A stretch of DNA of 64,000 bases, taken from positions 26,554 through 90,553 of the forward strand of contig JAULBX010016415.1 of NCBI GenBank assembly GCA_032358255.1, read 5' to 3'. The position numbers and the translations under genes were made by a program. The notes beneath the pieces were generated by a model that was not told the DNA's origin, made no database searches, and was given only the letters and a program-made list of their open reading frames with translations. This stretch comes from Heterotrichella gracilis. Its lineage: Eukaryota; Sar; Xanthophyceae; Tribonematales; Xanthonemataceae. Below, piece by piece: positions 19,828 to 44,700 of the stretch (within the stretch, counting starts at the first letter, position 1; every line of letters starts with the position of its first letter).

Positions 19828-21242
19828 ACTGCGGGGCCCTGTAGGGTGGGTGAAAGTTGGGGGGAGGGGAGAGCAACTGCCTGCCCTAACTAGGTAACTG
19901 AGGCAGGCAATTGTCTCTTAAGGGAGGTGCATGCTGAGGAATATAAGTGCAGCAGCTGGGTGCTTCGCCATTGTCCTGTTGTCACTTGTCTCAAGGTGCT
20001 GCGTGTGTGCCACGGTGTGTCAAACCAACAGGAAGCAGGTACAGAACCCATACTATGCGCCAAAGCGTGGCCTGCGATGGGCTTGCGAACCAACAAGATA
20101 TGCGCGCGCGGCAGAGGAAGTTTCCCAAGTGCCAGGGTGGCACATGGCAGCTAGCTTGGCAGCTATTTTGGCACCTGTTTTTACCCGAAAGCTAACGACA
20201 GGTAACAGTGCAGTGTGATTTGTAGACTATAGCCAATGTGTGTCGGCTTTCGTGGCTGACAGCAGCAGCAGTGCTTCGCATGCATGCATTCGCAATGCAT
20301 GCATGCACTCGACCACAGAGCACAACACTGCCCCAACCGCCCACTGCCACAATCGCCTCACCTGCCAGCTGTAACGAGCTGCCTGAGCGCTTGCAGGACG
20401 GGGTTACGCCCTCATAGCCTGAGACCTGTACGCCACGTCATTCCCGCCCAGTACTGACCTAGCGAGCCCCACAGCTAGGGCTAGCTCCACAATACGACCA
20501 CAGTCCCCGAACCCAAGACGTTGAACAGGATAGGACGCTTATCGGATAAGAGTAGCTGGACGATGAGAGTTGTGGTGGTGGGTAGGATGGTATGGTGCGG
20601 TACTACAACCGCCCAGGAAATAAAACGACTTCTTTTTGGGGGAAAAGAGAAGGGAAAAAAAGCTGCATATTACAGGATAAGATGGAGACTTCCCTGGCTT
20701 CAGCAGTGACCGATGAGACCCCACCGGTGGGCGTCAAGCACAGTCTGGGTCAAGTCTGAACAGATATAGCATTTCCTTGGTATGTTGGTAGCATGCATGC
20801 ACATCGAGGGTCCTCCACACAACGCAATACGCCAATGCAAATGGGGTAATTCGTTTGCCGGCAGAAGAGGTTGTGATGGAAACATGCTCTGTATCACGAA
20901 GGTACTAGCAGGCATAAAACTGTGCACCAATTACAACGGCAGGCCTTTGGGCGGGACTGGTCATGCACAGCGCTGTGTAAACCCTTATTAAGGTTTGATA
21001 TAACCCTACACCTACCCAGCTGGTCACCAATGATCACGCACAGCGCTGTGTTGACCCCACGCGCACAGCTGCTGTTAAATGCACAACTGGTGTTCAGCAA
21101 TAAGGCAGGCAGGCTCTGGGGGTTCAAGCTGCTTACAGGGTCTTGACCCCACACCCAACTACCGTAACTCGCCAAAAATAAATAAATATAAATAGTAAAA
21201 AGTTCCATCAAGGCCTCATGTCCCCAAACACACGCTCACCAG
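19828..21242. other. upstream block of gene A and A-B spacer
   Basis: From 19,828 to about 20,560 this is the 5' flank of gene A, recognisably shared with the 5' flanks of B (29,156-30,090) and C (40,380-41,370). Shared stretches include cgacaggtaacattgcag-type sequence and the nearby cagctttcgtggctgacaac. From about 20,560 to 21,242 the sequence is unrelated to those flanks and carries only the 3' UTR of gene B. Open frames here are not conserved in the other copies. Confidence 0.6.
20278..20306. repeat. 13-bp inverted repeat with 3-base spacer
   Basis: Arms gcatgcatgcatt (20278-20290) and aatgcatgcatgc (20294-20306) are perfect reverse complements separated by cgc, in the upstream block of gene A. 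Confidence 0.85.
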
Positions 21243-24200
21243 TCAGTTGACAGGCACCCTTGCTACAACCCCCGACACAATGGCGCCGTTGCTGCTCACA
21301 TTGAACACCCCCAGCCCCCCCACATCGCTGTACAGCCAGCAGTTGGGCCCCCACAGGGTCCATGCGCCACACGGCGGCTGCTGCACGCATGCGCAGTAGC
21401 AGGCAGTGGAGGAGGTGGTGGCTGCAAGGGGGGTGTAGGGTGCCAGGGCAGGGGAGGTGAAGGGCTTCTGCCAGATGGCGTCTACCAAGGTGGCGATGTT
21501 GCTGGTGCAGCCTGCGGGGAGGGGAGGGGAGGGTGTTAGCAGAGACCTAGAGACAGTCCTTTGCCAGTCCCCATATATTAGCACATGTGCAGTTGCAATA
21601 CGTGCAGGAGCCGGAGTCACCATTGCATAGGTGGCCACCGTTTGGAACCTAAGCATGGGTAGTAAGCAAGGGCACAACGTCAGGTTGGACCTTTTAGTTT
21701 GTCAGTTGGCCAGGGAAGTGACAAGGGAAAACCAAGAGGGGATGGAGCCCACCTGGGGGTGGTGGTGGGGGTGCTGGCGATGGTGGTGGGCGTGCTGGCG
21801 GTGGGGACGTGGACGGGGGAGGCGGTGGGGACTGTGCTGGACGGGGAGGCGGCCTGGATGGTGGGGGGCTGGGTGATGGTGGGTGGTGGTGGTGATGGCC
21901 GAGGCGTGGGGGGTGGGCGCGGGGCCGGTGGTGATGGGCGCGGGGGTGGAGGTGATGGGAGTGAGGGCGGGGGATTGGGTGGAGGACCAGGGGGCGGTGG
22001 TGATGGGCGTGGGGGTGGTGGGCTGGGGGATGGTAGTGGTGGTGGCGTTGGTGGGCGAGGCGGCGGCGATGGGCGAGGGGGTGGCCTTGGGCGGGGGGGT
22101 GGTGGGGATGGCGAAGGGGGTTGCGGTGGGGATGGGGATGGAGGTGGAGATGGTGGGGGGGTTGGTGGGGGTGGTATGGGCAGCAGCAATTTAATCTTGC
22201 CCAGCATTGTGCCCCAATTGTAAGTAGTGTACAAGCCCCAATTTGCGACAGCTATCTCTGCGCTCACGTAAAAGGCCCCGTTTTCATCGAGTATAGCTGC
22301 AGAGTAGTCCCCCTGGCGCACCACTTGGTTGTCGTTCTGCAGCATTGTAAATATAGTAGCATAGTTAGTATACCCGTGGTCAGGGCACCGGCTGCAGCCA
22401 GGCAGGTGGCAGGGTGCCAAGTCATGCCTTTGGAGTGCACCAGGGCTTCCGCCTTGCACCAGAGGCATGTGGCAGGGGGGAAAGTGTGACAGTGGGCCAT
22501 TTGGCAGGGGAGGTGTCTGATAGGGGAGTGTGATGGGGTGACGATGACAGGGGAATGGTGGTAGGGTGAAATAGGAATCTGAATTTGCTAAATAAGTTAA
22601 TTTATAATGAAATAAACTTAAAAGTGTATAAATAAATATTATATTTATTTATATATATGTGAAAACATCTCAACCTACCGCTGTCGACACTTGACCACTG
22701 TCGACAATCACAGGGGAAGGCACCTTTGTACTTTTAGTAATAGTAAAAAAAGTAAAAAAGTAAACAAATGATTAAACATCTGACCCTACCCCTCTCAGGC
22801 CTTCATTGGCTCCCGGCCAGTACAAGCTGTTTGCTGGTGGTGTGGTGGTGGTGAGGGTGGTGGTCACTGGGGTCATCATGATGTTTGGACCAACCATGCT
22901 GCCAATGATCACTCCATTGCCTGATGCGTCTGCCATTATCTGTGGTGACGCTGGCAGAGGTGGTGATGCCAGGGGGTTTTCCTGGGCTCCACAGGCTGTG
23001 AAGGGGAGGAGAAATGGGGGTTGGAATGGAAGGAGTGGTGGGGGTATTGGAGCGCGATGGGGGTTGTGATGTCATGTTCATTTCCAGGTAGCCGGCACCT
23101 TGCAAGTGTATACATATATGCGAGCCAACCTCAAGGCAGATAAGCAATTGGGACAAGGTTGTGCACATGAATTTAAGGCCAACACAGCAAATGGCACATG
23201 GTGGTGGCGATTGCCGCAAGACTTTGGGCTCAAGGATAGATGCATTCAGATGGATGGCGCCAAGGGAAATAAGGTATTAACAGCATTTTTGTCATCTTAT
23301 TACCCATAATGTTAATGGCACATGTGTAATTATTCCCAAAGGTGGAAGGTTGTATATTTGCATTCACAAGACCAAACCCCGAAACAGGGTTAATGATACC
23401 CTTCACTAGGGTCGATCCTTGTTCCCATAAGGTTTTCCCCTGCACCCCACGCACCCTTCCTGCACCACCGTGAGGCTGACCTCCCCTGCCTGTGACACCG
23501 AGGGCGTAGTGATGTAGTAGTGCGCCCCTTGCACCCTGCTAGCAACCTGGTCCTGGGCAACTGCAACAACCACGGGATACATATGAGCAAGGCAGTTCAA
23601 CCTTCAACTTTCAACTTTCATCCTTCAATTCGGCAAGCACCAATAAACCCCTTGTAGGTTGTTACTGACCAGCACCAGCCCTGGGAGGCCATGCAGTAAA
23701 CACAAAGTTGAAACAATCCCAGGGGTTGTGAATGAACATCACTCACTATGATCTATTAGACTTGCACTGTGAAAATCACATAGACTTAAGATCTTTAGCA
23801 TAAAAATATGGCACGTGATTTCCAGACCTATCAAATCAGCCGCTGGAATTATTAATACAACCTGGAACAGTAAGCATGACACTGAGCACAGGTATTTTAG
23901 GGGAGGGGTATACTATAATGCAGCAGAGGCCACATTATGCACCACATGTCCCACAGCATACGCAGCACTTTAGATGGTACGATACACGGATGTGACAAGC
24001 AAAGCAGAGCCCCGCCGCAACAGATTGAAGGCGAGGTTCAATCGAGCATGGTTAAATGATATTGAGTGGAATCCAAGACGTTGCATGCCCATAGCACTAA
24101 ATAGTAGATGACAACAATCAATCGCATGTGCCTGAATCACTGGGATGCTTCTTGCCCAATCCCAGTTTAGGGTTTAGGGAGTTAGAGTCGTTTATGTCCA

Positions 24201-27200
24201 ATCCTAATTTAGGGTTTAAGGAGTCAAGGGTTCTTCCTGTCCAATCCCAGCGCAAGCTACCTGCCCACAGCGCATCTCCGGTCCACACCACAGGGCCTCC
24301 AAACCCCACGGACGTGCCAGGCTCCACCTTGGCGGCGCAGATCGTGGGGCTCTTGAGCGGGTTAGGGTTAGGGCAGCCTTGGTACACAAAATCGTAGTAT
24401 ATGTCGTAATAGTCGTTGACCATCTGCTGGGATTGCAGCAGCAGTGGCGGCCCCCCCCTCTCGAATGCAGAGGTGTTGACGGCAGCCCAGATGACCAGTG
24501 AGCCCTGCAAGAGGGAATGTATAATGTTTGTAATAATTACAATAATTAATACGGTATTTGATTTATTACAATAGTCAGGATTATCACGTTTATTGTAACA
24601 TGAAGTGAATACTATGGGAGGAGGAATAACCTAGTATTAGTTTTATGTCCTCCCACAGCCTGCATTTCCACTTCCTCGGCTGGCTGGGTGAGTGGGCAAC
24701 ACGGTGGATTGGGATTGGTGTTTCTGCCATGCCGTGATTTACAATCCCAGTGAGTGCACTGCACCAGGCAACCGCATGCCTGCCTGACGACAGCCCTTCT
24801 AGAACAGGGAATTCTAGGGTTTGAATAGGGTAAAATAAGGTTTGCATCGGGTGGTATTTATAGATACCATGATAACATCCAACCCTATCCATACAATCCT
24901 ATCGTAACCCCATGTGCTCCACCTGAGCCCGGGTCATGATGAACTGTGCCCCTCCCCCGTATGCAGTGTCAATATAATCCGCCCCTGCGGCCATCACTGC
25001 AGGCTGACAGTGGTAAAAGTAGCTGGAGTTGGTGCCGAGGTACCACCTGAGCAGGCGAGAAAGGCCGGGTATTAATTGGGTACTTTACTTTCAATTCAAC
25101 TGCAATACACGCAGTACATGCGGACTGGTGTAAGCAATGCAAGGACCGAGCTGGTTGGCGCTAGACATGTATACATATAGGACCGACTGCTGCTCTGGCT
25201 GTACTGCTGGAACGCATGGAAGGGAGTGGGCATGGAAGAGAGGATTGCAAGGGATAAAATGGCATGATGCGCACTGACTGACAGTCACGTAGGATTTGGG
25301 GTTATTGAAAGGCAATTCCCTCAAGAACACGGTGTCTTGTCACAGCTGCAGCACCAATTTTCTTTAGAACAAATTGGCAAAACAAATGAGCAATCCCAGT
25401 TGCATGAAGAGGCGGGACCAGCAGTAGTAGCCCTAGGTGCCCAAGTCAAGCTTCAAGCGGCAATCGATGGTACGCATGACCACCATCCTCACCACCACGA
25501 TAGACATCCGCACCCGCCACTGCCCCACACACCTCACCTGAATGGCACAGGAAGGTTCCCCTGGATGAGGTCCCTTTTCCTGAATCCCCACACCGCGCTC
25601 CCCACAAACTCATTGGAGTCGGAAATGCTGCTAAATATGCTTGCGGTGACCCTGCAGGAACAGGAACCCTTGAGGGCACGTGCTGCACCCAGGCTGGAAA
25701 CACCAGGGCACAAGTATGGCACTACACATTTTTGTTGAAGTACCACACATTATCAGAAGTGTGGTATGCCGCCGTGTTTGGAGATTTTGTTTCCCTGTTT
25801 CTTTCAAAGCGGCTAGCTTGAGGGCAAGGTAAATTGTACAGTTCAACAATAATAATCATTAGGGTTTGCATTTTATTGATAATATGCTTGTTTTTTTCAT
25901 CTTGGTAGTAGAGTGATTTAAAATTGACAAAAAGAAAATGAATGTTTTGGAAATACTTAGTTGAGCATGAAAAGAAAAAGTCAACAATTTTCTGGGCCCA
26001 AATCCTGCAATGCATTCCCATGCATTCTACATGGCCACCTCCTCCAGTGCCTGCTGCGCGTGCCACACTTAGCCAAGCATGTGTCATGGTCACCATTGAT
26101 GCACGAGCCTCAAGCACACGCTCAGTCCAAAATCCCCTTGTAGGTGTTTAGGGTAGCCCCTGGGAGCACGCAACGCACCACACTCCATACTTGTCGACCC
26201 CCAGGCCGGGGAATTCAGCAAAGCACCCGGTGGTTGCATTGCACTGGAAGTAGCTCTGGTCCTTCATCTCCGCAGGAACATCAAACACGTTGTACTTGCC
26301 CAGGGGGCTGGGTGTCTGGCTGACGGCCAGAGCTATCCGGGAGAACTCCTTGTTCTTCGTTAATAAGTAGTGCATGTACGCCAGGAACCAGCGCTGAGAG
26401 GCGTTGTCGTACCAGCCTGCGGGGTTGGGCTGGGGTTTGAACATTTGTGCAGGGGGGTGCCGCATTGGCAATAGGTAGCGCTGCACCTGGAACAGAAATC
26501 ATGATGCAACCTGGTATGTTGCAAACCACACGTGGTGCGACACGATGCAACCTTGTATGTTGCAACCCACACGTGGTGCGACATGATGCAACCACATGCA
26601 ACCTGATACAATGCCCATAGCACACGATGTGACACGATGCGCTACACCTTCCACATGCATGCAACGCAGACTGGGATGCTCTGGCAGGCTGAACGAACGA
26701 TACACGCTTGTATATGTCAGATCAAACCAGCTAGGATGCAATTCCAATCTGCCCTATAGGCACCGGATTCCCATGCATGTGTGTAGTGATCGCACATCTG
26801 GGTTGCGCCAATAGACCAGTGTCAAGACCAAACAGCTTTGATGCCGAAACGGCTGGCCCTGCTGCTGTGAGATTGGAAGTGTAATAAACTCCGATCACCT
26901 GGAGGAGGGAGGAGAATGCCATTGTGAGCGGTTTATATTTGCATTAGTCCTTGCCGCACTGAGCGATGAGCACTGTGGACATGTTCAACATGTTTGCTAG
27001 TTGCAATAAAAAAAAAGGCTAACTTGACCTCAACCAAGGGGTGTATAGCCTATGAAAGAGCTTTCTTTCTATATACCCCTTGCCTCAACAAGTCATAATG
27101 GCATGGCTTTTGAGTGGCCACATGCACTCCTCTTTGCGCCTGGCTTCGAGGTGGGTGTCCAGTAGCGCTGTCATTGCGAATATGCCCGTGTGCCAAACCT

Positions 27201-29155
27201 ACCCATGCATGCACATACATGCAACCACGTACATGCACAACCACATGCATCACCCATGCTTCCAGGCGCCTGTGCATGTGATTACATATGAAAGCATATT
27301 CTAGGGGCATGCCCCTGGGGTGAGTGTGCACACATATATGACTCACTACTGAGTATACACGTACCCATGCATGTATGCACATACCCGCATCACATACACT
27401 GTTGATGGCCTGAAGCATCAACAGTGTATGTATACATACACACATGTGGGCATTTGTACTGTGGGCATACACGCATACGTACACTGTTGATGGCCTGCAG
27501 CAGGTATCCCCCCCCACTGCACAGCGCGTTGTCAGGCGGCTCCATTAGGTACCCTAGCTGCACCTCGTTGTCATGCGTGTTCAATCCCTGGGACCAGGTG
27601 GTGGTGAATCCCGGGGATGAGGCCGGGGATGAGGTGGCGGTGGAGGTGGAGCCGCTGGTCTGTGGGGACCAGGGGAGGAGGGTGAGGATTGACGTGATTT
27701 GAGGAGGTAGGACTGGTCAGGAGGATTAGAACAGGATTGGTTTATCTAGTCATATACTCCTTTGGCTGCTGTAGAGTATGGATGTTTGAGGGGGTACGCA
27801 AGGAGTGCAGGGTGAAATATGGTGGCTGGAGATGGAGGAGCCGGTATACCCAGATGGATTCAATCAGGGCGTGCACCTGTAAAACAATGTGCATGCATAT
27901 GTAAAAAATGGCTTGCACTCGCAAATCCTGCCATTGACATGTAAAACAATGTGCATATACAGGCGGGAATATGCATGCTTTTTGCGAATACTCCGTTCCC
28001 GCCATCGCAACAGAAGCGCGTGCATGTCTGTGCCACGTGGCTGTACAGACTTTGTTGGCTTGTTTGCGCTAACTAAGCATGCACAACATGTGGCCAAACC
28101 GTCTGAACCATTACTTGTACTGGTTGGCAGCAACTCATCGCTCCCACCCCACGCCTACCCACCCCCACCCCACCTTGGTTGTGTGCTTTGTGGTCCCCGA
28201 GGTGGTGAGGTTGCTGTGGAAGGCCTTGACCGGCACAGCGCCGTCAAACTCTGGCCTCACGTGCAGGGGGTACACCTTGTCGGGGTTAAAGTCCAGGCTC
28301 CTTGCGGATGCCATCAGGTTGCCCAGGCTGGTGCGGGTGGTGGTCACCTGCAGGGGGGGGACACAACACACTCATGGTATGGCACTGCATTACCGTAGTT
28401 CAATCAAATATGCTTGAAATATATATATCATTCCATATCAGGACCCAGGGTCCGGTGCGTTCAGGAGCTTCCTAGGTTCCTGGCAGGCTTTGTACTTATT
28501 ACTCAGGCTTTAGCAATTCCCCAACTTTCGAATTTATTTTCTCTTCGAGAAAGTTGTGCTTTATGTCAGGTGGGAGGAGAATATGTTATTTCAGACACCC
28601 TCCTAAATTTAGTTTAAACCAATTGGGCCCCCAGATCCTCGACCCACCCAACCACATTTTAATGACAATGTCTTATTTACTTTTTGGGGCTGATTTGGAC
28701 ACATCTAAAGGCCCTGCTGCTCTTTGGACCAGCCGAGTTTTCAAAAATCACCTTCATATAAATTTTAAATAAAAATAACATTTGTGTCCCTTAATTAAAT
28801 TGAATATATGTTGTTAATTTTAATTAAAACTGGATGTATTATTAATAATTTTTACAAGTTAATGTAGCATATTGGTATGTACCAAATAATTCGCAGGTTC
28901 GCAGGTTACTGTCCCAGTTTCTGCTCAATGTTGTCACAGGCAGGTTGGCAGGTATAGCTAGGTTAGGCATGTGGGTACTGCGTAGACAGCCTTCCTCTGG
29001 GGGATTACTCAATTATTCACCTGGCTGGGTGTCATGAACACTTGCGTGGGCGGCAGGGTTATGGTGGGTTGGAGCGGTGGAGGGGTGGCCCCTGAGAGGT
29101 GCACCGCTGCCTGGGCAAGAAGCGCCAGTAGGAGGAAACGGGTGGGGAGCGCCAT
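21243..29155 (-). CDS. secreted propeller/Pro-rich/PAN protein, paralogue B, altered frame
   Basis: Second copy of the family. Exons: 29155-29021 (signal peptide MALPTRFLLLALLAQAAVHL), 28347-28174, 27659-27483, 26898-26796, 26416-26179, 25651-25538, 25046-24923, 24504-24261, 23560 to about 23451, about 22981-22790, 22336-21753, then about 21501-21243. The first eight exons match A and C in phase. The exon starting near 22,981 lacks five bases at 22,949/22,950 relative to A and C (gacaggac became gac), which shifts the frame. The shift is cancelled if the preceding exon uses a donor after the TGC of EGC (exon end 23451), replacing a short segment. The Pro-rich exon also ends in a different phase, needing an acceptor eight bases inside the PAN exon, which removes its first Cys. 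With both choices the model is 817 aa; without them B is truncated before the linker. It may be a pseudogene, a diverged gene, or contain an assembly error. Confidence 0.62.
21760..22175. repeat. G-rich low-complexity tract opposite Pro-rich exon (B)
   Basis: Same kind of G-run repeats as in gene A, longer. The first part of the tract in plus-strand order (21,760-21,870) corresponds to a Thr/Ser/Pro-rich tail not found in A or C. Confidence 0.85.
27035..27082. repeat. foldback element in gene B intron
   Basis: Left arm caaggggtgtatag (27035-27048) and right arm ctatataccccttg (27069-27082) pair with one mismatch. The loop contains a second small palindrome (gaaagagctttc). Followed by short CA-rich repeats. 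Confidence 0.75.
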
Positions 29156-30482
29156 GCTGGGGGCGGCCTGCAGGGTGGGTGAAAGGTGGGGGGGATCAGG
29201 AGGGAGCTTGAGGGGAGGGTGAAGGGGAGGGGGACGAGGACAGGCAAGGTGGCGCGTGTTAGAAAGTACAAGAGTTGGTGCACGTAGGAAAATGCAAATG
29301 CAGGAGCACAGGGTGGAGGCGCCCCAGTTGTACAGCCCCAGCTACGTGTATATGTCAGGCATATGCATTTTCCTACGTGCACCAACTCTTTTACTGCATG
29401 GCCATGGCGAAGCAGAGGCGAAGCAGCCATGGCCTTTGCTGCTTCGCCACATGTACATGCATGCTTCTGTTGTTGATTGTCGCAAAATGTTGCGTGTGTG
29501 CCACGTTTCATCAACTCGATGGGCAACAAGAAGCAGTGCCCAGACTGCGCCGAAGCGTGGCCTATACCTCTGCGAACCAACAAGGTGAGCGCTCGCGGAC
29601 GTCTCCCCATGGCCACGTGCCAGGGTGGCAGACGGCAGCCAGCTTGGCAACTGCTTTGGCATGCTCGAAAGCCAACGACAGGTAACATTGCAGTGTGAAA
29701 AGAGTAGCACTGACAGCCTATGTGTGTCAGCTTTCGTGGCTGACAACAGCGCACGCCATGGTTCGCATGCAAACGGATTCCGGAATGCGCAAGCATGCAC
29801 GCGACAGCACCATAACACAGCAAAGCCCCCTGCCCCCACCGCCCACTGCCACCATCGCCTCACCTTTAAGCTGGCACGAGGTGTGTGGCGCTTGCAGGAG
29901 GGTGTTGCGCCCTCGCGGCCTGGCCAGACATGTATATGGAGACCTTTGGGCCACGGTCAATCCAGCCCAATACTGATCAGTCACGACCTAGCCAGACATA
30001 CTAGTACCGACCTAGCCAGCCAATACGGCCACATTCCTCGAACCCAACCCAAGACATGCAACAGGATGAGGGAGCAACGCTACAACCAGTGTCCGGGGCA
30101 GAATAAGGTATTTCTGCCAATTGGATTACAGAAATCAATTTTGAGACGGTGGTTTTCAGCCAAGGTTGCCAAAGATTCTTCTGCCAATTCATTCTGCCAC
30201 TCTGAGAAACCGCTGAAGTATGGCACCACTACAATGTGGGTACCATGTGGTGACATTCGGGCAGCCTGAGCACATGTGGAGCAATGAATCAGGATAATCA
30301 GGAGCCAGCGTACCCCAGCCTTGGCCGCTTGGACCACAATGCATGGCAGGCCAGAGGAGAACACCTCGAGGAAGGCAAAAACCTTGCTGGCAGGTATGGC
30401 AACCCTGGCTGGACAAATTCTAAACCCTGAACCCAGGCTGGTGAGTACAAGCATTTGCAGGAGCCGCACGCGCAGCCTCGCC
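29156..30482. other. upstream block of gene B
   Basis: Promoter and 5' flank of gene B reaching to the stop codon of the LON' fragment. Colinear with 40,380-41,780 upstream of gene C. It contains a 214-codon open frame on the plus strand (29,625-30,269), but the matching stretch near C carries indels that break it, so I do not call a gene. Confidence 0.6.
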
Positions 30483-30966
30483 TCATGCCCCCTCCCCGCC
30501 CGCCTCCACTCCCCCCTCCGTCGCCCCCTCCGGGTACAGCAGTGGCCCCATGCCCACCCCCGCCCACAGGTGGTCCCCCGCCACCGCTGTGCGCAGCAGC
30601 TGACCTACAGCGGCGCGCATGCGGGGCTGGCGCAGCAAGCCCACCTGCAACCATACAAAGAGGTGCGACGGTTAAAACACGCCCACAAAAAATCAATGAT
30701 ATAAAAAAAGGAGTGTCTTACTAGATGGCGCAGCAAGCCACCCTGCAATATATATATATCAAGCGGGGAGTGTCATTTGACTCATGGTAAAAAAACGCGG
30801 TAATGACCCAGCAGTGACAGAATAATGGTCCCATTCACATTGCTCAAGCATGATTTTCAGCGGTGCTTCACCCGTACTCAGCCAACGCCCCCACCCACCC
30901 GCTGCTTGAGCCTCAGCCTCACGCTGCGCTGCCTGGCCCACCTGCGCTGCAGCGGCTGAGGCACGG
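30483..30966 (-). pseudogene. severed copy of the last two exons of FIST-LON gene
   Basis: The last-exon copy 30644-30483 keeps an open frame (VGLLRQPRMRAAVGQLLRTA... to TGA), nearly identical to 41942-41781 of the intact gene. A second stretch ending at 30899 copies the preceding exon (QPLQRRWARQRSVRLRLKQ) and stops abruptly at 30966, part-way through it. With no FIST or LON domain and no start, it cannot make the normal protein; it marks the edge of the duplicated unit. Confidence 0.85.
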
Positions 30967-31160
30967 ACTACTCTGTGGTATGTCACTTGTGGTTTTGAGG
31001 CAAAAGTTTTGAGGCACAGGTCTGTACACCCAGCTGCTGTGACAGGTCATGCACACTTTTGGAATTCCAGTCTCCCGCCGGACCGTCCGGATAGAGGTCC
31101 GAACCGGAATCCCAGAGCTGATCCCGGTAGCCGAATCAGCCTGAAACGGTCCCCATACTA
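30967..31160. other. duplication junction, filler sequence
   Basis: About 194 bases between the point where FIST-LON similarity stops and BTB similarity begins. It matches neither parent locus by eye and contains short GC-rich inverted motifs (ggaccgtccgg, ggtccg). It could be filler DNA or the remnant of an inserted element. Confidence 0.65.
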
Positions 31161-31661
31161 GAGGTTGGATAACACAAGAGGAGAAAGTGATCAAGCTGTT
31201 TGTGTCGCGGCACTGCCGGTCCGGGCAGCACAATGCAGGAGGGGCAGAGCAGGAGAGGGAACAGGTAGGGGATTACAACACCTGGGGGCCCTGTGCCTTT
31301 CCCTTGCTCGAGCATGATTATTCCTTTCTTTGAACACGCTCGGTCAAGGACAGGCCTGCGTACTCATGTGTTTATTTGGATGTTTTTATTATGTAAAATA
31401 CACTAGTTTCACTTGTTTATATGTTCTGGTAAATAGTGCTTACTTACTTCAAATGCTTGTATCCAGAAGACAGCAGAGGTGGTGCAGGAGGTGGTGCCCT
31501 CAATCAGGAGCAGGAAGCGCAAGGCCATGCCAGCAGGAGCCTCGGCACCAGCAGACCAGCGATTACGCAGGAGGAGCACAAAGATAGCTTCAGTTCCTGT
31601 GCAGGCCGCCCATGACGCTGGGCGGCTAGCGGCTAGGATCCAGTTAGCACAGCACCATTAA
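31161..31661 (+). pseudogene. severed copy of the last two exons of BTB gene
   Basis: 31161-31264 copies the end of BTB exon 8 (GWITQEEKVIKLFVSRHC), and 31467-31661 copies exon 9 (KTAEVVQEVV..., RSRKRKAMPAGAS, then a diverged tail) with intact splice sites between them. The frame is open, but there is no BTB domain and no start. It forms the left edge of the right duplication unit. Confidence 0.85.
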
Positions 31662-33573
31662 ATTGAAATTATTAATTGAAATTAGCACGGAAGCTAGATA
31701 AACGCTGAGCGCCTGGCGGCTGGCCTAAGGAACCAGTAGCTCAACATCGCGGAAGCAACACACTCGCTTTGAAAGCCTTTAGTTAGGATCCAGTAGCACA
31801 TCTCTGTATTGCAATTTTCCTTATAAGACATATCTTGAGGGATTGGCTTCTTCTGCCCCCCGCCAGAGATGTGCAGTGGTGCATTGGTGCAATGCAGGGG
31901 AGGCGCAGCCATGGCAATGCCAGCGCATGTTGAGAGAATGCAGTCAACAGGTAGAGGAGGGGAGGGACGATGAATTTGTTAGGCAGTAGGTATTCTCACT
32001 CGTCATCTGATGGCATGAAGGAACCATTCTGGGGAACATCTCTGTATCGCAATTTAAATTCTTCGCTGCAACTACCTAAACTAGATTCCTTTGCCAACAT
32101 TTTTCAAACTCAGTCTGACGAATCATTTGCGACAACATGTAATATTATTAATTAAAAACTATTAAATTTTACGTGTAGTCTACTCCAAGGCCCACTGCGG
32201 CATCACGCATGGCATTGCCACATTGGACAACCACGGCCAGGCTGACAAGTTGTACGTAAATGTGATGCATGACACGTTACAACATTGCTGTCAACTTGAC
32301 ATTTCCTTGGATAATCATATAAGTCCCTGGGATATATTATATTAAGGGCCTTCAGAAGGGTCACCCTAGCAGCCTCCCACCAGTGACTGCACGCTTGCGA
32401 CAGCCTCAGAGTCAGCATGCTGGTGCACTGCGGTGGGCTGCCGGCTGCACCCGCAATGCCATGTCGATTAAGACATATACAATAGTATACATTTTGTAGT
32501 AATACTATACTAAGTGTGTGCACGTGCATGCAGTCACTGTTGATCAAATTAATCCGGTTTCAGATTAATCCTTAGAAGATTGAAGTATTAACTTCAAACA
32601 AAATCTTGACGTACGTCAGTTTTTGTACCCATTACCTAGAGCGACCGCCTAGGCCATGTGTCGCGCAATATGGTGTGTGCATGCGCCAGGACCTGTGAGG
32701 GTTACAATATACCCCAATATGAATGTTTTGTGCTTCATGCACGAGGGTATCACTCACCAGTCAGAACTGGAGGGCAATCAGGAGGGCTAATGCTGCTCTG
32801 CCAGCAGTCCAGATGGGCCAGTGTTTCCAGTCTCAGATATTACAATACACTATACTGCTCTCCTATTGGATGGGCAGGTGGTGTCTAAACTCCCAACGAC
32901 TTTTACGAAGGGAGGTACGATGCACCGCGTATACGCCGCGGTGGACCAATCAGCAGTCCAACAAAGAGGCTGACGGGGTAGAATATACGCACTCGGCAAA
33001 TAGCAACTTGGCGTGGGTAGGGCAATGACTCCAATCTCTCATAGGTCTGTGTCTGGGTAGAATGCACACCCTTGGCTAGCAGCACTCGATGTGGGTAGAA
33101 CAATGACTCCAGCCTCTCATAGGTCTGTGTCCGGGTAGGATATACGCAACGCTGGCGTGGGTGTACTGGCGACCAATGACTGCAGAGACTCCTCAAATGT
33201 CAGCTGCAAGTAAACAAAAGCAGTGTCTATCGCCTGCGGCATAGCACATAAACTGCTGGCAACGGCCAGCCTTCTAGATCTCCCCTGTCTGGAGACAGGG
33301 GAGGGACAATACACATAAAACTAGGAGGGCCACGTGGCAACGACCTATAAAACCCTCAGCAGGGTACTGTGCCCCACACTGGGATATCGCCCTGGACTAT
33401 CATGGTAAAATATACCCCTGGTAGCTGACCAGATGGCAACAGGTACAGGCGCTTGACACATGTTTCAATGGCTCACAAAATACTTTAGTGCATGAATCAC
33501 CCCATTGCCAAGATTTGTGAACGAATTATAACCATTCCTCAAGTTCTCAGACACATGTTCGAGCGATCGCCAG
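31662..33573. other. 3' region between BTB' and gene C
   Basis: Mostly AT-rich 3' sequence. Blocks match 11,572-12,982 in the same order, with extra sequence (about 32,650-33,430) not seen there, including a short tandem repeat. No gene seen. Confidence 0.5.
32972..33170. repeat. about 78-bp degenerate tandem repeat
   Basis: Units with gggtagaa/gggtaggg, caatgactcc, ctctcataggtctgtgt start at 33015 and 33093 (period 78), flanked by partial copies. Found downstream of gene C only. Confidence 0.8.
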
Positions 33574-36500
33574 TTAAGTGGCAGGCACCCTTGCTACAAC
33601 CCCCGACACAATGGTGCCGTTGCTGCTCCAGTTGAACACCCCCAGGCCCCCCACATCGCTGTACAGCCAACAATTGGGGCCCCACAGGGTCCATGCGCCA
33701 CACAGCGGCTGCTGTGCACATGCGCAGTAGCAGGCAGTGGGGGAGGTGATGGCTGCAAGGGGGGTGAAGGGTGCCAGGGCAGGGGAGGTGAAGGGCTGCT
33801 GCCAGATGGCGTCTACCAAGGTGGTGATGTTGGTGGGGCAGCCTGCGGGAGGGGAGGTGTTCTAAGAGAACGAGATATAGTCCTTTGCCAGTCCTCTTAC
33901 ATTAGCACAATGTGCAGGAGCGGAGCCCTCGTCGAATATGTGGTCAGATGATTAGCATGGGTAGAAAGCAAAGGCACAATGTCAGGCGTTGGGGGTTTTC
34001 GTTTGTTAGTTGGCCAGGGAAGTGGCAAGGGAAATGGAGAGGGGATGTTGCTCACCTGGCGAGGGTGGTGGTGGGCGCGGTGGTGGTGATCGCCGAGGCT
34101 TGGGTGGTGGGCGCGGGGGCGGTGGTGATGGGCGCGGGGGTGGAGGTGATGGGCGCGGGGGCGGGGGGTTGGGTGGGGGACCAGGGGGCGGTGGTGATGG
34201 GCGTGGGGGTGGTGGGCTTGGGGATGGTGGTGGTGGTGGTGTTGGAGGGCGGGGCGGCGGCGATGGGCGAGGGGGTGGCCTTGGGCGAGGGGGTGGCCTT
34301 GGGCGAGGGGGTGATGGTGGTGGGGTTGGTGGGGGTGGCATGGGCAACAGCAGGGTAATCTTGCCCAGCATTGTGCCCCAATTCGACCGATTAATAGCTG
34401 TTGCCGCCATCTCCGCGCTCACAAAAAAGGCCCCGTTTTCATCGAGTGTAGCTGCAGAGTAGTCCCCCTGGCGCACCACTTGGTTGTCGTTCTGCAGCAT
34501 TGTAAACATAGTAGCATAGTTAGTATACCCGCGGTCAGGGCACCGGCTGCAGCCAGGCAGGTGGCAGGGTGCCAAATCATGCCTTACGAGTGCACCAGGG
34601 CTTCCGCCTTGCACCAGAGGCATGTGGCAGGGGGGAAGTGTGACAGTTGGCCATTTGGCAGGGGAGGAGTCTGTTATGGGGAATGTGATGGGGTGACGAT
34701 GACAGGGAATGGTGGTAGGGTGAATTAAGATTGTATAATAAAATTAAAAATGTGCTAAATAAATAATTTATAATAAAATAAACTTTAAAGTATATAAATA
34801 AATATATGTAAAAACATCTGAACCTACCGCTGTGTACACTTGCTACCAATTGAGCCAAATGATGCTAATAGGGGTTCCCGTAGGGTGATGGGGTGACAAT
34901 GACAAGGGAATGATGATATCATATACAGGGAGTGAAAGTAAATAAAAGTAGAGAAATTAACAAATGTAAACAACATCTGAACCTACCGTTTTCAGGCCTT
35001 GATTGGCTCCTGGCCAGTACAGGCTTTTGGTTGGTGGTGTGGTGGTGGTGAGGGAGGTGGCCACTGGGGTCATCATGATGTTTGGACCAACCATGCTGCC
35101 AACGATCACTCCATTGCCTGCTGCGTCTGCCATGATCTGTGGTGACAGGACGCTGGCAGAGGTGGTGATGCCAGGGGGTTTGCCTGGGCTCCACAGGCTG
35201 TGAAGGGGAAGAAAAATGGGGGTTGGGGTGGGAGGGAATGATGGGATTCGGAGTTGCCTTACGCAAAAAAGACCAATGAAAGCATGGTGCATGTGAGTTC
35301 TGTCCAAGGCAGGGGCGTAAATTGAGCGATGGCACTCTACACCAAATACATTAAATACACAAAATGGCAAATATGAGATGGCACCCTCATGGAACCAGAG
35401 TGTGTGCATCCTGGGAGCGCATGAGGGATATCATCAATGCCAACGAGCAATTCGGGGTTCTTCGTGCAATGAACCCCCCGCAAAGGTTGATGTTTCCTCT
35501 AGGTTTTTTTCCTGCACCCACGCACCCTTCCTGCACCACCGTGAGGCTGACCTCCCCTGCCTGTGACACCGAGGGCCTGGTGATGTAGTAGTGCGCCCCT
35601 TGGACATTGTCAGCAACCCCGTCCACGGTAACTGCAACAACCACGGGATACATGTGAGCAAGGCAGGTGCAAGCACCAAAATAACATCATGCTTGTGCGG
35701 AGCTACCAGCACCAACCTGGCAGGCCATGCAGTAAATTCAATTAAATACATTTAAATGGTTGACACAAGATTCAAATGATGCCAGCTACTGTGAAAGTTA
35801 CAAAGATTTACGTACAGGTCTCCAAAACAGACAGAAGTCTGGCGTGTGATTTGCACACCTATTCAACAAGTCATTGGAATTATTGATACAGTTGAGAGGC
35901 AGCAATCATGACACACGGCACTGTATGTGCACCATGTGCCCCTCGGCACAGTGACTATATCGTTGGGATTCTTCATGTCAAATTCCAGCCTAAGTCACCT
36001 GCCCAGAGCGCATCTCCCGACCACACAACCTGGCCTTGAAACCCTATGGAAAAGTCAGATTCAAGCTTGGCGGGGCAGGTCTTGGGGCTCTTGAGCGGGT
36101 TGGGGTTGGGGCAGCCTTGGTACACGGAATCGAAGTTGGCGCCGTCGTAGTTGTCGACCAGCTGCTGGGATTGCAGCAGCAGTGGTGGGTCCCCGCTCTC
36201 AAATGCAGAGGTGTTGACGGCAGCCCAGATGACAAGGGAGCCCTGCAAGGAGGGATGATACGATTGTAAATAATGTCATGTAATTCACTTGTCACCAATA
36301 ACGATTATTTCTTTATTCTATGGATTTTCTGAATGCAATGGGAGGAGGGGATTAAGCTGATGCTAGGGGGCAAACAGATGTTTACTCAAAAGTAGGATTG
36401 AGCCACTTTGCAAACGTTGGATTGGGCTTCAGACATGCCTTCGGGTACCGTCCTAACACAACAACTGTATGGCTGCCAGATGACAGCAAATTGGAGGGCA

Positions 36501-39500
36501 GCCCTTCAGGGACATGGTATTATAGGGTTTACACAGGGGTTGGTAGGGTTTCCATAGGGAGGTATCTGCAGATGATATCATCCACACCTATCCATTAACC
36601 CTATCGTAACCCCATAAGCCCCACCTGAGACCTGGTCATGATGAACCCTATCTTAACCCTTCAGGACAGAGAATTATACAATAGGGCTTGGACAGGGTTT
36701 AGATGTCCATGTGCCCCACCTCAGTCATGCCTGTGGGGTCCCCACGGGTCATGATGACCTGTGCCCCTCCCCCGTATGCAGTGTCCATATACTCCGCCCC
36801 TGCAGCCACCACTGCGGGCTGGCAGTGATAGAAGTAGCTGGAGTCGGTGCCAGGGTACCACCTGGGCAGGCGAGAAAGGCCGAGATGAGTTGCTTACTTC
36901 ATTTTTGTAGGACATGCAGTACAAGGGATTGGAATGAGCAATGCAAGGACAGAGCTGGTTGGTGCAAGTCGTGCAAGAGTGACTGCTGCTCTGGCTGTAC
37001 TGCTGGAATGCATGGAAGCAGGGAGTGCGCATGGAAGGGAGGATTACGAGGGGGAAAAGGGGATGATGCGCATTGAATGTCTTAGGACTTACAGTTATGG
37101 AAAGGTGGTCCTCTCTTGTCACAGCCGCTGCTCTAATTTCATTGTTGCAAGATTCCAAGCAATAAGGCCTTGGTGCATCTACAGGTGGACTTGCAATGAT
37201 GGCCCTAACTGCCCCAAACAAGCTTCAAGCAGCAATAAATAATACGCATAACCACGTGCACCACCATCCTCACCACCACCATGACCAGCACCAGCACACG
37301 CCACTGCCCAATGTACACCCTCACCTGAATATCATGGGAAGGATTCCCTGGATGAGGTCTGACTTCTTGTATCCCCACACGACGCTCCCCACATACCCCG
37401 CATTAGCGTCGGAAATGCTGCTGAACATATTCCCTGTGACCCTGCAAGAATGGAAAACCCTTAGGGTGCTGCTGCAGGCTGGCAACCCTAGCGCACAACC
37501 ATGGCACAGTATATTCTCTACATACGTCCTGCCAATTTTGCAATGCGACTAGCTTGAGTGGAAAGCACAAAAGAAATATCTCCCATTGGACACTATGTAT
37601 AACAAAACACAGTGCTGCTATTTATCTGATCCACTATTGTTGTTACTAAGTAAAATACTCCGCACTGCCTGCTGCCCGAGCCATGCATGCACGTAGGGAT
37701 TGAGGGTAGCCCCTGGGAGCACGTGACGCACCACACTGCATATTTGTCAATCCCCAGGCCGGGGAAATCCGCAAAGCACCCGGTTGTGTTATCGCACTGG
37801 AAGTAGCTCTGGTCCTTCAGCTCCGCAGGCATATCAAAGACGTGGTAGTTGCCCAGAGGGCTGGGTGTTTTGCTGACGGCCAGTGCCATTCGGGAGTACG
37901 TATTGGTGGTGTTGGTTGAGTAGTGGATGTGCACCACGAACCAGCGCTGAGAGGCGTTGTCGTACCAGCCTGCGGGGTGGGCCGGGATCTGATCATTTGC
38001 ACAGGGAGGGATGCAACAGGGAGCACTGCACCTGGCACTGCCATGGCATGAATCACAACCCAACCTGATGTGTTGCAAAACCAATGGGGTGCGACTCACG
38101 CAATCACGTGCAACCTTATGACAGCAGAGGTGATCGCACATCTGGGATCGCTCACTCCGTCGTCAAGACCAAACAGCTTCGTTGTCGACACGGCTGGCCC
38201 CACTGCTGTGAGATTGGAAGTGTAATACACCCTGATCACCTGGAGGAGGGAGGAGAACGCCATTGTGAGCGGTTTATATTCGGCAATATGATTTTTGCAT
38301 TAGTCCTTGCCTCAGTGAGCAATTAGCACTGTGGACATGTTTCAACATGCCTGCTAGTTGCAATAAAAAAGGCAAGCTTGACCCTCAACCAAGGGGTGTA
38401 TAGAAAGAGCTATCTTTTTATATACCCCTTGCCTCAACAATTGAGTTAACTCAACATGGCATGGCTCTTGAATGGCCACATGCACTCCCCTCTGCGCCTA
38501 GCTTTGTGGTTGGTGTCCAGTACTCAGTACTGCGCTGCCAATGCGAGTATGCCCGTGTGCCATATAGCTACAAACTCATGCAAATACATGTATACAGACG
38601 CATGCACAACCACATGCACGGGCCATGCTTCCAAGCGCGGGTGCATGTGATTATATATGAAGTCGTGTTTTAGGGGCGTGTTCCTGGGGTGAGTGTGCAC
38701 ACATATATGAGTATACACGTACCCATGCATGCATGCACACACCCGCATCACATACACCGCTGATGGCCTGAAGCATACATACACACATGTGGGCATTTGT
38801 ACTGTGGGCATACACGCATACACCTACACTGTTGACGGCCTGCAGCAGGTATCCCCCCCCACTGCACAGCGCGTTGTCAGGCGGCTGCCACCGGATCCCC
38901 AGCAGCATCGCATTGTCATCCGTGTTCAATCCCTGGGACCAGGTGGTGGTGAATCCCGGGGTTGAGGACGGGGATGAGGTGGCGGTGGAGGTGGAGCCGC
39001 TGGTCTGTGGGGACCAGGGGATGGGGGTGGGATTGACCTCAATTGAGAGGGGTAGGACTTGTCAGGGGGATTAGAACATGACTGTTTTCTAATCCCATTA
39101 TATTCCTCTCTGCGCTGTGGAGCATGAGAGTTTGAGAAGCAGGCAAGGTGTGCAGGGTGAAACAAAGTGGCTGGGGAGGGAGAGCCGGTACACCCACTGG
39201 GCTTGATTGGAAATGAGGGCGTGCACATGTGTAAGAATGTGCATGCACAGGTACCAAAACGCACACTTCCAATTGCCATTTTTTTGTGCATATACCCCAT
39301 ACGGAGATGTGCATGCAATTTGCCGCCCCATTTCCGCCATCGCACCGGTACCGCGTGCATGCCTTACACAAGGCTTACACAAGGCACGGTCAAGCAACCT
39401 CAACCAGCCAAGCACACCCACGCTCCCGTCCCCCCATCCACCCCACCTTGGTTGTGTGCTTTGTGGTCCCTGAGGTGAGTTTGCTGTAGTGGCTCTTGAC

Positions 39501-40379
39501 TGGCAGAGCGTCGTCAAACTCTGGCTTCGCGTGCAGGGGGTACACCTTGTCGGGGTCATAGTCCAGGCTCCTTGCGGATGCCATCAGGTTCCCCAGGCTG
39601 GTGCGGGTGGTGGTCACCTGCAGGGGGGGGGCACAACACAGGCTTGTACTGATACTGCATGAATTCAATTGAATGCTTGAAATATCTAGAATCTTTATTA
39701 TAACTCCATATCAGAACCCAGGATCCCCTGCACTTGGGAGGTTCCTAGCAGGCTTTTGACTTATTACTCAGGCGTAAGCATTTCCCTTACTTTCGAATTG
39801 ACCATGGTTTCCCTTCGGGAAAGTTGTGCATTTGTCAGGGGGGAGGACAAAATATTATTTCAGACACCCTCCTGGGGCCTCCAAATTTTCGACCCACCCA
39901 GAACGAAACGAAGTGCGCATGCAGGCAAGTTTAAACTTTTCAAACTTCACCTTTCTATACTTTTATACAAAATAATAAACATTGTGCCCCTTAATTAAAT
40001 TGAAAATTATGTTGGTAATTGAAACTGGAATTTTTATCAATAATATTATTGATTGAAATATAGGTACCAATAAATAGGGCACACATGGCAGGTTCGCCGT
40101 GCGTGTTCTGAGTTACTGCCCCAGCCTTTTGCTCAACTGTGTTTTCATAGGCAGGTTGGCAGGTATAGCTAGGTTAGGCAAGTGGGTACTGCGTAGACAG
40201 GCCGTAGACAGCCTAAGGAGTTATTCAATTATTTATGTATCTACCTGGTTGGGTGTCATGAACACTTGCGTGGCCGGCAGGGTTGCGGTGGGTTGGAGCG
40301 GTGGAGGTGTGGCCCCTGAGGGGTGCACCGCTGCCTGGGCAAGCAGCGCCACGAGGAGGTAACAGGTGGGGAGCGCCAT
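33574..40379 (-). CDS. secreted propeller/Pro-rich/PAN protein, paralogue C, intact
   Basis: Cleanest family member: exons 40379-40245, 39617-39447, 39004-38828, 38239-38140, 37969-37732, 37441-37325, 36861-36720, 36242-35999, 35631-35518, 35183-34987, 34491-34056, 33842-33574; 2340 nt, 779 aa. Residues 1-20 are a signal peptide (MALPTCYLLVALLAQAAVHP). About 46-595 is the beta-propeller-like region (PPDNALCSGGGYLLQAVNS near 142, SDPRCWYDNASQRWFVV near 192-208, FADFPGLGVDKYAVW, SDLIQGILP, YQGCPNPNPLKSPKTCPAK). About 597-690 is the Pro-rich linker (PSPPPPRPSPPPP repeats). About 692-779 is the PAN/Apple-like module ending GVVARVPAT. Its seventh exon ends six codons later than in A and B. Many NxS/T sequons fit a secreted glycoprotein. 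The function is unknown; extracellular carbohydrate or protein binding is an inference. Confidence 0.85.
34060..34340. repeat. G-rich low-complexity tract opposite Pro-rich exon (C)
   Basis: Same type as in A and B; encodes the Pro-rich linker on the minus strand. Confidence 0.9.
38390..38431. repeat. foldback element in gene C intron
   Basis: Arms caaggggtgtata and tatataccccttg around a short loop, in the same intron as the gene B foldback at 27,035 and followed by similar sequence, so it was probably present before the duplication. Confidence 0.75.
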
Positions 40380-41780
40380 GCTGGGGGGCCCTGCAGGGTG
40401 GGTGCAAGACCTAGCTAGGTGGGGGGGGATCCGGAACGGGAGGGAGGGGAGGGTATACCTACGTAGGGAGGGTGAAGGGGAGGTGGACGAGGACAGGCAA
40501 GGTGGCGCGTGTTGGAAAAATACAAGAGTTGGTGCACGTTGGAAAATGCAATTGCAGGAGCACATTAGAGCACAGGGTGGAGGCGCCCCAGCTGTCAGCC
40601 TGGGGCTGACTGCTTCGCAACATGCATGCTTCTGTTAACATGTTGTTGAATGTGTAGAATGTCTCAAGGTGCTGTGTGTTTTATCAACTCGATCGGCAAC
40701 AAGAAGCAGTACCCAAACTATGCGCCGAAGCGTGGCCTATAGGTATAGCCTTGCGAACTAACAAGGTGAGCTCGCGCGCGCGCGGAAGTTTCCCAACGTA
40801 CATGTGCCATGGCAGACTGTAATAATGCCAGAGTCTACAGCTGTCTAGACGGCACGCAGCTAGCCTGGCAGCTGTTTTTGCAGCCCGAAAGCCAACGACA
40901 GGTAACATTGCAACATTGCAAGCAGTGTGACTTGTGAAACTTTCTTGAAGAGTAGCACTGGTAGCCTATGTATGGCAGCTTTCGTTGCTGACAACAGCGC
41001 TAGCGCACGCCATGGTTCGCTTGCAAACGGATTCCGGAATGCGCAAGCATGCACTCGACAGCACCACAACACAGCAAGTCCACTGCCCACACCGCCCGCT
41101 GCCACCATCGCCTCACCTTTAAGCTGGTACGAGGTGTGTGGCGCTTGCAGGAGGGTGTTGCGCCCTCGCGGCCTGGAGACCTTTCGGCCACGTCAATGTT
41201 GACGAATAACCCCGTCCATGGCCAGTACTGATCAGTCACGACCTAGCCAGACATACTAGTACCGACCTAGCCAGCCAATACGGCCACAGTTCCCGAACTC
41301 AAGACGTTAAACAGGATGAGGGAGTCCTGTAGCTGGACATGTGTTTAACCCTTAATATTAAGGGTTAAACACTACAACCAGTGTCCGGGGAATAGGGTAT
41401 TTCTGCCAATTGGATTGCAGGAATCAATTGGCAGTGGATTTCAGCCAACGTTGCCAATGATTCTTCTGCCAATTCATTCTGCCACCCTGAGAAACCGCTG
41501 AAGTATGGCACCACTACAAATGTGGGTACCATGTGGTGACATGCGCGCAGCCTGAGCACATGTGGAGCATGAACACACACAGGAACCACGCGGCGTACCC
41601 CAGCCTTGGCCGCTGGACTACAATGTCATCGATGCACGGCAGGCCAGGGGTGAACACCTCAATGGAAGGCAAAAACCCTTGCTGGCAGGTCTGGCAACCC
41701 TTGCTGGTGGGCAAAACCCTACACCCTAAACCCTTGCTGGTGAAACAACTTTTGCCAGGAGCCGCATGCGCAGCCCCGCT
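40380..41780. other. upstream block of gene C
   Basis: Promoter and 5' flank of gene C, ending at the FIST-LON stop codon. Colinear with the block upstream of B, with indels, and shared in part with that of A. Confidence 0.6.
41341..41372. repeat. perfect 32-base palindrome
   Basis: From gtgtttaacccttaat the second half is the exact reverse complement with no spacer. It lies in an insertion of about 50 bases that is absent from the matching place upstream of gene B. Confidence 0.9.
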
Positions 41781-44700
41781 TCAGGCCCCCTCCCCGCCCG
41801 CCTCCACTCCCCCCTCCGTCGCCCCCTCCGGGTACAGCAGTGGCCCCATGCCCGCCCCCGCCCACAGGTGGTCCCCTGCCACCGCTGTGCGCAGCAACTG
41901 ACCAACAGCGGCGCGCATGCGGGGCTGGCGGAGCAAGCCCACCTGCAACCATACACAGATATGCCTTTACAATACACATATAAAACTAACCTATATGTCA
42001 TACAAATACGCATAGTGTCCACCAGTTTGCCCAGCAAAGCCCACCTGCAACACCAAGCAGGTTGTGTCATTTGACACATAGTACCAAGAACACAATACAG
42101 ACAAGGGAAAATAAGATGGAGCAGTAATGACCTAGCAGTGACAGAAGAATGATTCGCTTCACATTGCTTGAGCAGATTTCGCAGCGGTGATGCACTTGCC
42201 CCACTGCAATCGAGCCGGCCCTACTTTGCTTTCCCAGCGCACCCACCCACCTGCTGCTTGAGCCTCAGCCTCACGCTGCGCTGCCTGGCCCACCTGCGCT
42301 GCAGCGGCTGGGGCACGGGAAGCAGGGCGGCGGTCAGGAAGCTCAGGGCCTGCAAGGGGGAGAAGGAAGGAACTGTCAACAAAGCGGGGGCCAGGTGACT
42401 GTCCTGGATGGGACAACATACGCCTGGGTGCCTACATGAGGTGCTGTGGAGTACCGTACATGCTCTGCACACTGTGGATTGTCACTCAACAGGCCCCAGG
42501 GCCACCCATCGACCATCTGCAATGGTCATGGAAACATTCATCAAGCAGGGTTTACGGTGCCCCAGTGTACGGTAATCCACTACCACTGAACCCACCTTGG
42601 CAGATTGGTAATCCCAGACTTTCCGGTACGCCATCCCCGCGCCAGTCACCACCCGTTTGGGACCAATAGCCCCGGCAAACGCCGCAGATGCCCCACCATC
42701 CTCCAGCAACCCCGCTCGCCACCGCTCAATATCTGGCAGGCTCAACCGCACTGGCGCATCATCCCTCCAACTCAGCCCCATGATCGCGATGCCGTAATCA
42801 TCATCGGATGCGATCGTCGGCAATGATGGCGCATCGGGCGATGATGATGAGGGTTGGGACGATGATGAGGATGCCTCGTGTGCCCGCATGCGCGCCTCTG
42901 CATCTGCATGTGATGCTGCCAGAAGGGCCGCCAGGTCAGCTGCCAACTGGCAGGTTTCTGTGCGTTCTGAGGGGAGGTCGTCGTCCTGTTACACCACCCC
43001 TTGCCGTCAGTGGACGGGTGAATGTTGAAAACAGAGATATGTGGATGCGACGGTGGGCGAGTGGGAGGGGCGTGCCATACCATGGTCAAGACACTTGGTG
43101 CATAGTCAAGCGGCCCATGGGTGGAGCAATGGTGGGGGCTAGCAGGGCACAGGGCGATAGGTGGTGGAGCCAGAGACGAGTGCATCGCAATGGCAACGGG
43201 ATGATGCAGACACAGTGCAGGGGTAGGTGGAGGCAGGGCAGGGGCACGGGGCATGGCACACATGGTGGGGTATGCGTGGGCATACGTACGTCAAAATAGG
43301 TTGGACGGGCTACTGTCAATCCAAAGGTACCTGCAGGAAAAAAACACAAAGGCATGTCAGCACAGCTTACCCGGCCAGCTACAAGGATTCTGCTCTGTGC
43401 AAATCAGTGCACAAAACAAAGAGAACTGTTTAAAACATCATCACTGAACGGGCGAGTTTCATGATAATCTAAAAGGCCGCCACACCCTGCTTCCCCACCC
43501 CTATTTCATTCACTGCACCCACCTGGCACCACTCGTGAGCTCCCGCCCGCCAGGTTGAACCTCCTCCCCCCCCTCACTACCACCCACACCTGGCCATCAT
43601 CCCCCACCCGGTGCCCCTCCACTGCCACAGTGGTGCCTGTGCCATTGTAGGCGACACCAAAGGCTGGGCAAGAGGTAACGTCAGGGGGGGGAGTGAGCGG
43701 GTCGTGAGGCGAGGGGAGGGCGGATCGGAGCAGCATGCGGTACCGAGGCTCAAAGATGCTGCATGGGGTGGGGTTTGGTCAGTGGCTCATAAAGTACGGA
43801 AAGTTGGTGAGATGATCATAGCACCGCGGGATCAGGTCTTCCGTCAACAATTACAGAACTTGACCATCACTTTTTTCCATCCTACTGGAAACCCCGCCCA
43901 GTATTACAATGCAGCATGCATTGTCAGATGCCTGTGAATGCACCTTGATGAGATTGCATACGGTATTTTAAATTTCAGAACACCAGAGGAATCCAACACT
44001 CAGTGCTGTACTAACACCTTAACCCTTTCATTCCTCCCCTGCTTACTTGAACATGGTCAGCTCCCCTGGCCACACCACCTTATCCACTGAGAAAATGGGC
44101 ACCTCCTCCCTCCCCTGCACCTCGCTCTCCTTGTCACCCCCTGGAGCTACGCACCGCACCTCTGGCAGGACCACCTGCAAGGCAGAGGGGCCGAATGGGT
44201 AAGGCTTGTGATGCGTTTTCATGCATACGTTTTGGGCACACACGATTGGTGGTGAATCCTCATGACCCGGCAACGGCCTCACTCTGGATACGCTGACCAG
44301 CCACTCCCACAGTCGATGCCATCACGCCCCGCAATGCAGCACCACCAATCGTGTGCATGAGGGGTATTTAGAAAAAGCTTTTCTTTCTCTATTAGCTGCG
44401 TATGCTGCCAGCTCATTTTTGGCTTAGGATATAGGGTTGACACTGTGCTGCCAACTCATGAAAAGCAATCAAACTACACCTCCAACCAACATGTGCTTCA
44501 TTATTCTGCCATGTGCTACCCACCTGGGCAGCTTTCCACTCCCCTGCCTGCCGCAGCGCCTCGGCCAATGATGGTCGAGCAAAGTCCTGAGGCAGTGGCC
44601 CTTGGTGTGCGGGGCCAAAAAGCTCCAGGGAACACCCCAGCTGCATGCCGTGGGGACAACATGTGTGAAATTAAATAAATATTTTCTCTAACGAACATCA

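Follow-up and report, generated by a model that had tools for sequence, protein, structure and literature searches.

Severed tails of two genes, with differing fates, at the seam of an old tandem duplication in Heterotrichella gracilis

The segment at 30483-31661 of a 64,000-base stretch of Heterotrichella gracilis DNA (the window; G+C 54%) is the junction of a direct tandem duplication that runs from inside a BTB gene to inside a second gene, here called LON. Two colinear copies in the same orientation meet there at one seam, and the seam carries a severed tail of each gene (LON′ and BTB′). The event is old. What stands out is that two fragments born together have met differing fates, BTB′ having drifted and LON′ not.

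A tandem array of three copies (A, B and C) of one long gene lies on the minus strand at 12.9-41.3 kb. Its left neighbour is the BTB gene, on the plus strand, and its right neighbour is a minus-strand gene that the first-pass annotation of this DNA had named FIST-LON. LON′, a filler and BTB′ sit between genes B and C. The features are listed below, with exon limits read from the sequence alone.

10998-11571, plus strand: last two exons of the parent BTB gene
12971-20531 (approximate extent of the shared stretch), minus strand: gene A, the oldest copy, with a BTB-side 3′ flank and no LON tail upstream
21224-30067 (approximate extent), minus strand: gene B, overall nearest to C, with LON′ upstream
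30483-30644, minus strand: last exon of LON′, 53 codons and stop, copy of 41781-41942; 6 of 162 bases differ (5 synonymous, 1 not), no gap
30645-30898, minus strand: last intron of LON′, GT-AG kept, copy of 41943-42250; 51 mismatches in 241 aligned columns, 13 gap openings
30899-30966, minus strand: severed second-last exon of LON′, 3′ part only, copy of 42251-42318; 1 of 60 inner bases differs, the outer 8 at the break being uncounted; in-frame stop just upstream
30967-31162, no strand: junction filler of 196 bases, no second copy found in the own-genome search or in the window and parental 1-kb comparisons
31163-31264, plus strand: severed exon of BTB′, 3′ part only, copy of 11102-11203; 15 of 102 bases differ, no gap; in-frame stop upstream
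31265-31466, plus strand: last intron of BTB′, GT-AG kept, copy of 11204-11394; 40 mismatches in 176 aligned columns, 8 gap openings
31467-31661, plus strand: last exon of BTB′, protein end diverged, copy of 11395-11571; dN 0.138 (first 37 codons), 0.265 (all 56 aligned)
33555-41317 (approximate extent), minus strand: gene C, body nearest to B, 3′ flank A-type
41781-42349, minus strand: last exon, last intron and entire second-last exon (42251-42349) of the parent LON gene

Self-alignment of the window was carried out with loose scoring. The stretch 11102-11522 aligned with 31163-31597 at 74%, and 26786-30966 aligned with 38130-42318 at 73% in a single colinear match that lays gene B and LON′ onto gene C and LON. 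B is thus followed by LON′ and C by LON. On the other side, A is preceded by BTB and C by BTB′, and the intervening stretches have a piece of ~200 bases in common (score 74; best of 200 shuffles 23). At default scoring blastn gave only one match in the window, between A and B, which indicates that the copies have diverged. A search of the whole assembly (68.5 Mb in 903 contigs) with 30483-31661 found three places, namely the query segment and its two parents, with E 1.6e-104 and 2.1e-71. The seam thus repeats one and a half terminal exons of each parent: 30483-30966 duplicates the 3′ end of the gene at 41781-42318, and 31163-31661 duplicates that of the BTB gene (11102-11571). The first-pass annotation had predicted both alignments, from a tandem duplication reaching from inside one gene to inside the other; copies, order and orientation are as it proposed, and its coordinates are accurate within a few bases. 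It had also placed intact parents at the outer ends. The broken exons are complete there (42251-42349 and 10998-11203), in gene models that are partial. Both breaks cut within exons, and the sequence runs on past both breaks at the outer ends.

A retrocopy is ruled out because each tail retains one intron. It is very improbable that the seam is an assembly artefact, either a chimeric join or two haplotypes placed end to end: an intron mismatch of 21-23% is unlike that of near-identical copies or haplotypes, and a random join would not leave the two severed tails in tandem order on the very contig that carries the two parents.

The unrelated sequence between the tails, put earlier at about 194 bases, measures 196 bases. 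In the own-genome search, run at E up to 1 with simple or very common words skipped, this filler returned itself only, and its derivation as a second copy from elsewhere in the assembly is rejected. Four comparisons with the 1 kb adjoining each parental break gave scores that 27 to 192 of 200 shuffles equalled or exceeded, which rejects diverged DNA from beside either break. Wherever 200 shuffles are cited here, they preserved base composition only. The best other match within the window has E 0.61, and no match to phage records was obtained. A scan of the seam for bacterial promoters and terminators, a method unsuited to a eukaryote, found nothing; the window gave no match to Rfam at gathering scores and no tRNA by ARAGORN with the bacterial code.

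As had been claimed, both tails keep open frames, with GT and AG present at the single intron of each. A simulated neutral tail keeps frame and splice sites with a probability of 0.32 without indels and of 0.007-0.06 at intron-like indel rates; open frames on their own are weak evidence of use. In-frame stops in the filler end both frames just upstream of the severed exons, with no ATG in the interval from the last stop to the severed exon. No open frame joins either tail to new 5′ sequence in the filler, as a chimeric gene there would have. Translation of full-length LON′ would need splicing from further 5′ exons into the severed exon. In-frame ATGs are present inside the last exons of both tails.

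The suggestion that the event is recent does not hold. In the introns, 21-23% of aligned columns are mismatched and gaps open ~5 times per 100 columns. The LON intron has 0.25 substitutions per aligned site (K), the BTB intron 0.27 and the sequence downstream of BTB 0.23, and gap openings in these three stretches ranged from 4.5 to 6.4 per 100 columns. The intron values come from a gap-friendly aligner, which gives a mismatch of 0.35-0.45 for unrelated sequence, and may be underestimates. On the LON side K is smaller, 0.14 directly after the LON stop and 0.08 at 41345-41560. Synonymous divergence, proposed in the first-pass annotation as a check, was also computed. dS was 0.25 for BTB/BTB′ (70 codons), 0.089 for LON/LON′ (73 codons) and 0.19 for B/C; it was 0.34 for A/C and 0.36 for A/B, the array values being taken over 303 to 306 codons in ten exon blocks chosen for conservation and silent excess. 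The synonymous differences of the BTB pair (10/49), the LON pair (5/59) and B/C (37/220) show no significant difference, as a single event requires (BTB against LON p 0.10, LON against B/C p 0.15, BTB against B/C p 0.54; small counts). Gene A is older, since dS of B/C is below that of A/C (p 0.008) and of A/B (p 0.004). Fisher tests were carried out on rounded counts, with 20 and 10 for 19.5 and 10.5, and with 61 and 63 for the A pairs.

Over 70 codons, BTB′ and BTB are separated by 19.5 replacement and 10.5 silent differences (dN/dS 0.53). These figures omit the last 19 of the 56 aligned last-exon codons; with them that exon has dS 0.443 and dN 0.265. The ratio is about that of one constrained and one free copy, the constraint on BTB itself being assumed. 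When the exon mask was shifted along the alignment, 618 of 868 shifts were as low as the true position for whole exons, and 228 of 868 without the diverged end. The exons of BTB′ thus diverge as freely as their non-coding neighbours, which together with dN/dS fits a decaying pseudogene fragment. The aligned exon columns, 220 in all, hold one gap, of 3 bases, against 4.5 per 100 in the intron, and this is more frame-keeping than a pure relic would show. BTB′ looks mostly relaxed, leaning to relic.

LON′ presents a different profile. Only 2 replacement and 5 silent differences separate it from LON in 73 codons, and the replacement differences (2/160 sites) are far below those of BTB′ (20/161; p 7e-5). 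Its exons hold 7 events in 222 columns against 119 in the 772 others (994 columns), and none of 993 circular mask shifts was as low; in a shorter region 13 of 771 shifts were as low, and with only the last exon masked 17 of 993 were. The exons of LON′ therefore do not diverge as freely as their non-coding neighbours. On an unconstrained LON′, 7 to 20 replacements would be expected, depending on the clock used, and the probability of 2 or fewer is 0.027 to 5e-7. The deficit of replacements and the confinement of likeness to exons indicate that the LON′ exons have been either constrained or converted. The idea that the tails are still transcribed is plausible for LON′, with its nearly unchanged exons; it fits less well with BTB′, which leans to relic.

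Three causes can be considered for the conservation of LON′. The tail may supply the coding C-terminus of a transcript whose 5′ exons are new, and may have been under selection at the protein level since the duplication while its twin BTB′ drifted; we put this forward only tentatively. Gene conversion from LON, rather than use, could well account for the likeness, although its chance falls somewhat short of even. dS of the LON pair is below that of B/C and of BTB, not significantly (p 0.15 and 0.10), identity is mosaic in other parts of the array, and stops shut the frame between the filler and LON′. However, the kept columns track two exons and their splice sites around a diverged intron (K 0.25, 13 gap openings), which conversion tracts need not do. 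It is rather unlikely that LON′ persists because it serves as promoter DNA for gene B, a role that the LON tail would then play for gene C. The LON′ stop does lie ~1.3 kb upstream of the likely ATG of B, and the stretch from LON′ to the ATG is also well kept in B and C (mismatch 0.076 at 41345-41560), with one 60-column bin at 97%, as conserved as LON′, and a 63-base exact match (29971-30033 and 41226-41288) upstream of the likely ATGs of both genes. Still, the 150-column bins from the LON′ exons to the ATG mismatch at 0.08-0.31, more than the exons themselves (0.017 and 0.037), and no LON tail was found near gene A, though the exon blocks of A look constrained (A against C, dN 0.068 and dS 0.34, in blocks chosen for that pattern).

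The relations among the array genes bear on the order of events. Among 2030 columns in which two copies agree against the third, B and C agree in 972, A and C in 591, and A and B in 467. In 34 bins the nearest pair was B/C in 20, A/C in 9 and A/B in 5 (two of the A/B bins tied with B/C). A and B are the least similar pair both in synonymous sites and in these columns. Beyond the shared stop codon the 3′ flank of C matches A (score 53; best of 200 shuffles 20); against B it scored 13, and 142 of 200 shuffles were as high. A single change point fits best in the 5′ part (about 39691 in C), with a score that 3 of 300 block shuffles reach. The last bin has an A/C excess of 22 against 6 (p 0.004), in a comparison examined after the fact that overlaps the flank. 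The mosaic of nearest pairs across bins indicates that conversion has also acted. At 22294-22482 of B and 34449-34637 of C, the two are 95-98% identical where A is 35-70% alike, and this stretch is a possible gene-conversion tract.

The history that we favour, and consider fairly probable, has three steps. An ancestor of A and B, lying between the BTB and LON genes, would first have duplicated to yield the two. A segment of ~20 kb, beginning within the second-last exon of BTB and ending within that of LON, would then have been duplicated in direct orientation, the non-homologous ends being joined with 196 bases of filler and the headless tails LON′ and BTB′ left head to head. The second A would later have been lost. 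Exchange near the A2 and B2 ends is the simplest route to this loss, and would give C a mainly B-type body and an A-type 3′ flank. Afterwards BTB′ would have drifted under little or no constraint, and the LON′ exons would have stayed nearly unchanged, by use as a C-terminal piece with other 5′ exons or by conversion from LON. The duplicated unit thus probably contained both A and B, with C the product of a later loss: a unit with both, duplicated whole and then trimmed near the A2/B2 ends, explains the nearness of B and C and the A-type flank of C. Against this history stand the third step that the loss of A2 adds, the mosaic relation of A, B and C, and the change point in the 5′ part where the model places the switch at the 3′ end. 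The reverse order is unlikely: a one-gene unit would have been duplicated first, its left copy would later have given rise to A and B, and B/C conversion would mimic sisterhood. It needs one step fewer and explains the A-type flank of C too, and the copies are mosaic, B and C reaching 95-98% in islands where likeness to A is 35-70%. However, a single-gene unit later split into A and B should leave A and B as sisters; they are instead the least alike, so that conversion would have to span most of the gene.

The identities of the genes were searched by Pfam and other means. A BTB domain at 7436-7744, upstream in the BTB gene, is above the cut-off (21.7 against 20.5 bits), and matches to BACK in that gene (20.6 against 20.9) and of the BTB tail to RNaseH_like (14.9 against 25 bits) are sub-threshold. 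The name LON goes back to a single sub-threshold match of one exon (14.7 against 28.7 bits), which was not recovered after rough joining of the LON exons, and the pieces tried gave no match for FIST. The LON tail matched no Pfam family; joined LON pieces gave a sub-threshold match to SR-25 (11.2 against 40) and one match in a PDB search, at E 1.3.

For genes A, B and C no Pfam family passed the cut-off with the pieces tried or with joined gene-C pieces. Their products may be secreted, as judged from a hydrophobic start from an ATG near 40380 in C (by eye), a proline-rich hinge and a Cys-rich end. The hinge reads as PPSPPP-rich in the family, and a PAN_4 match at the Cys-rich end of C is sub-threshold (12.2 against 27 bits). 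Outside its own contig, among 105 matches listed (40 of 396 candidates scored), gene C was matched only in the proline-rich hinge and in a short dispersed repeat. This repeat, of ~80-110 bases, occurs within A, B and C at 36939-37017, about 25122-25231, 16501-16591 and 14810-14888; 37 of the 40 matches listed (288 candidates) are on other contigs, and it is possibly a SINE or an intron-borne element. The 63-base exact match upstream of B and C is a candidate regulatory element.

Among the literature titles listed none is about this locus, which is no proof of absence. Young events commonly leave gene fragments at such seams. The old seam described here keeps both fragments readable and of the same age, so that each is a control for the other, and the drift of one tail with stasis of the other leads to a specific prediction at the RNA level.

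Gene conversion occurs in tandem gene arrays, and the mosaic identity of A, B and C is in keeping with it; the conserved blocks of LON′ differ from it in tracking exons and splice sites. Gene fragments from tandem duplication are already well described, and this seam is an old example of an ordinary class of event. In Drosophila yakuba, for which genome-wide counts are given, tandem duplications with breakpoints inside genes lead to partial gene duplication and exon shuffling, and gene fragments arise where the duplicated segments disregard gene boundaries (PMC5460883); breakpoints inside genes have yielded gene fragments here too. The fly cases are polymorphic in populations, whereas the event here is old. 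Unlike those cases, both pieces here are 3′ tails facing away from each other, and neither brings the other a promoter.
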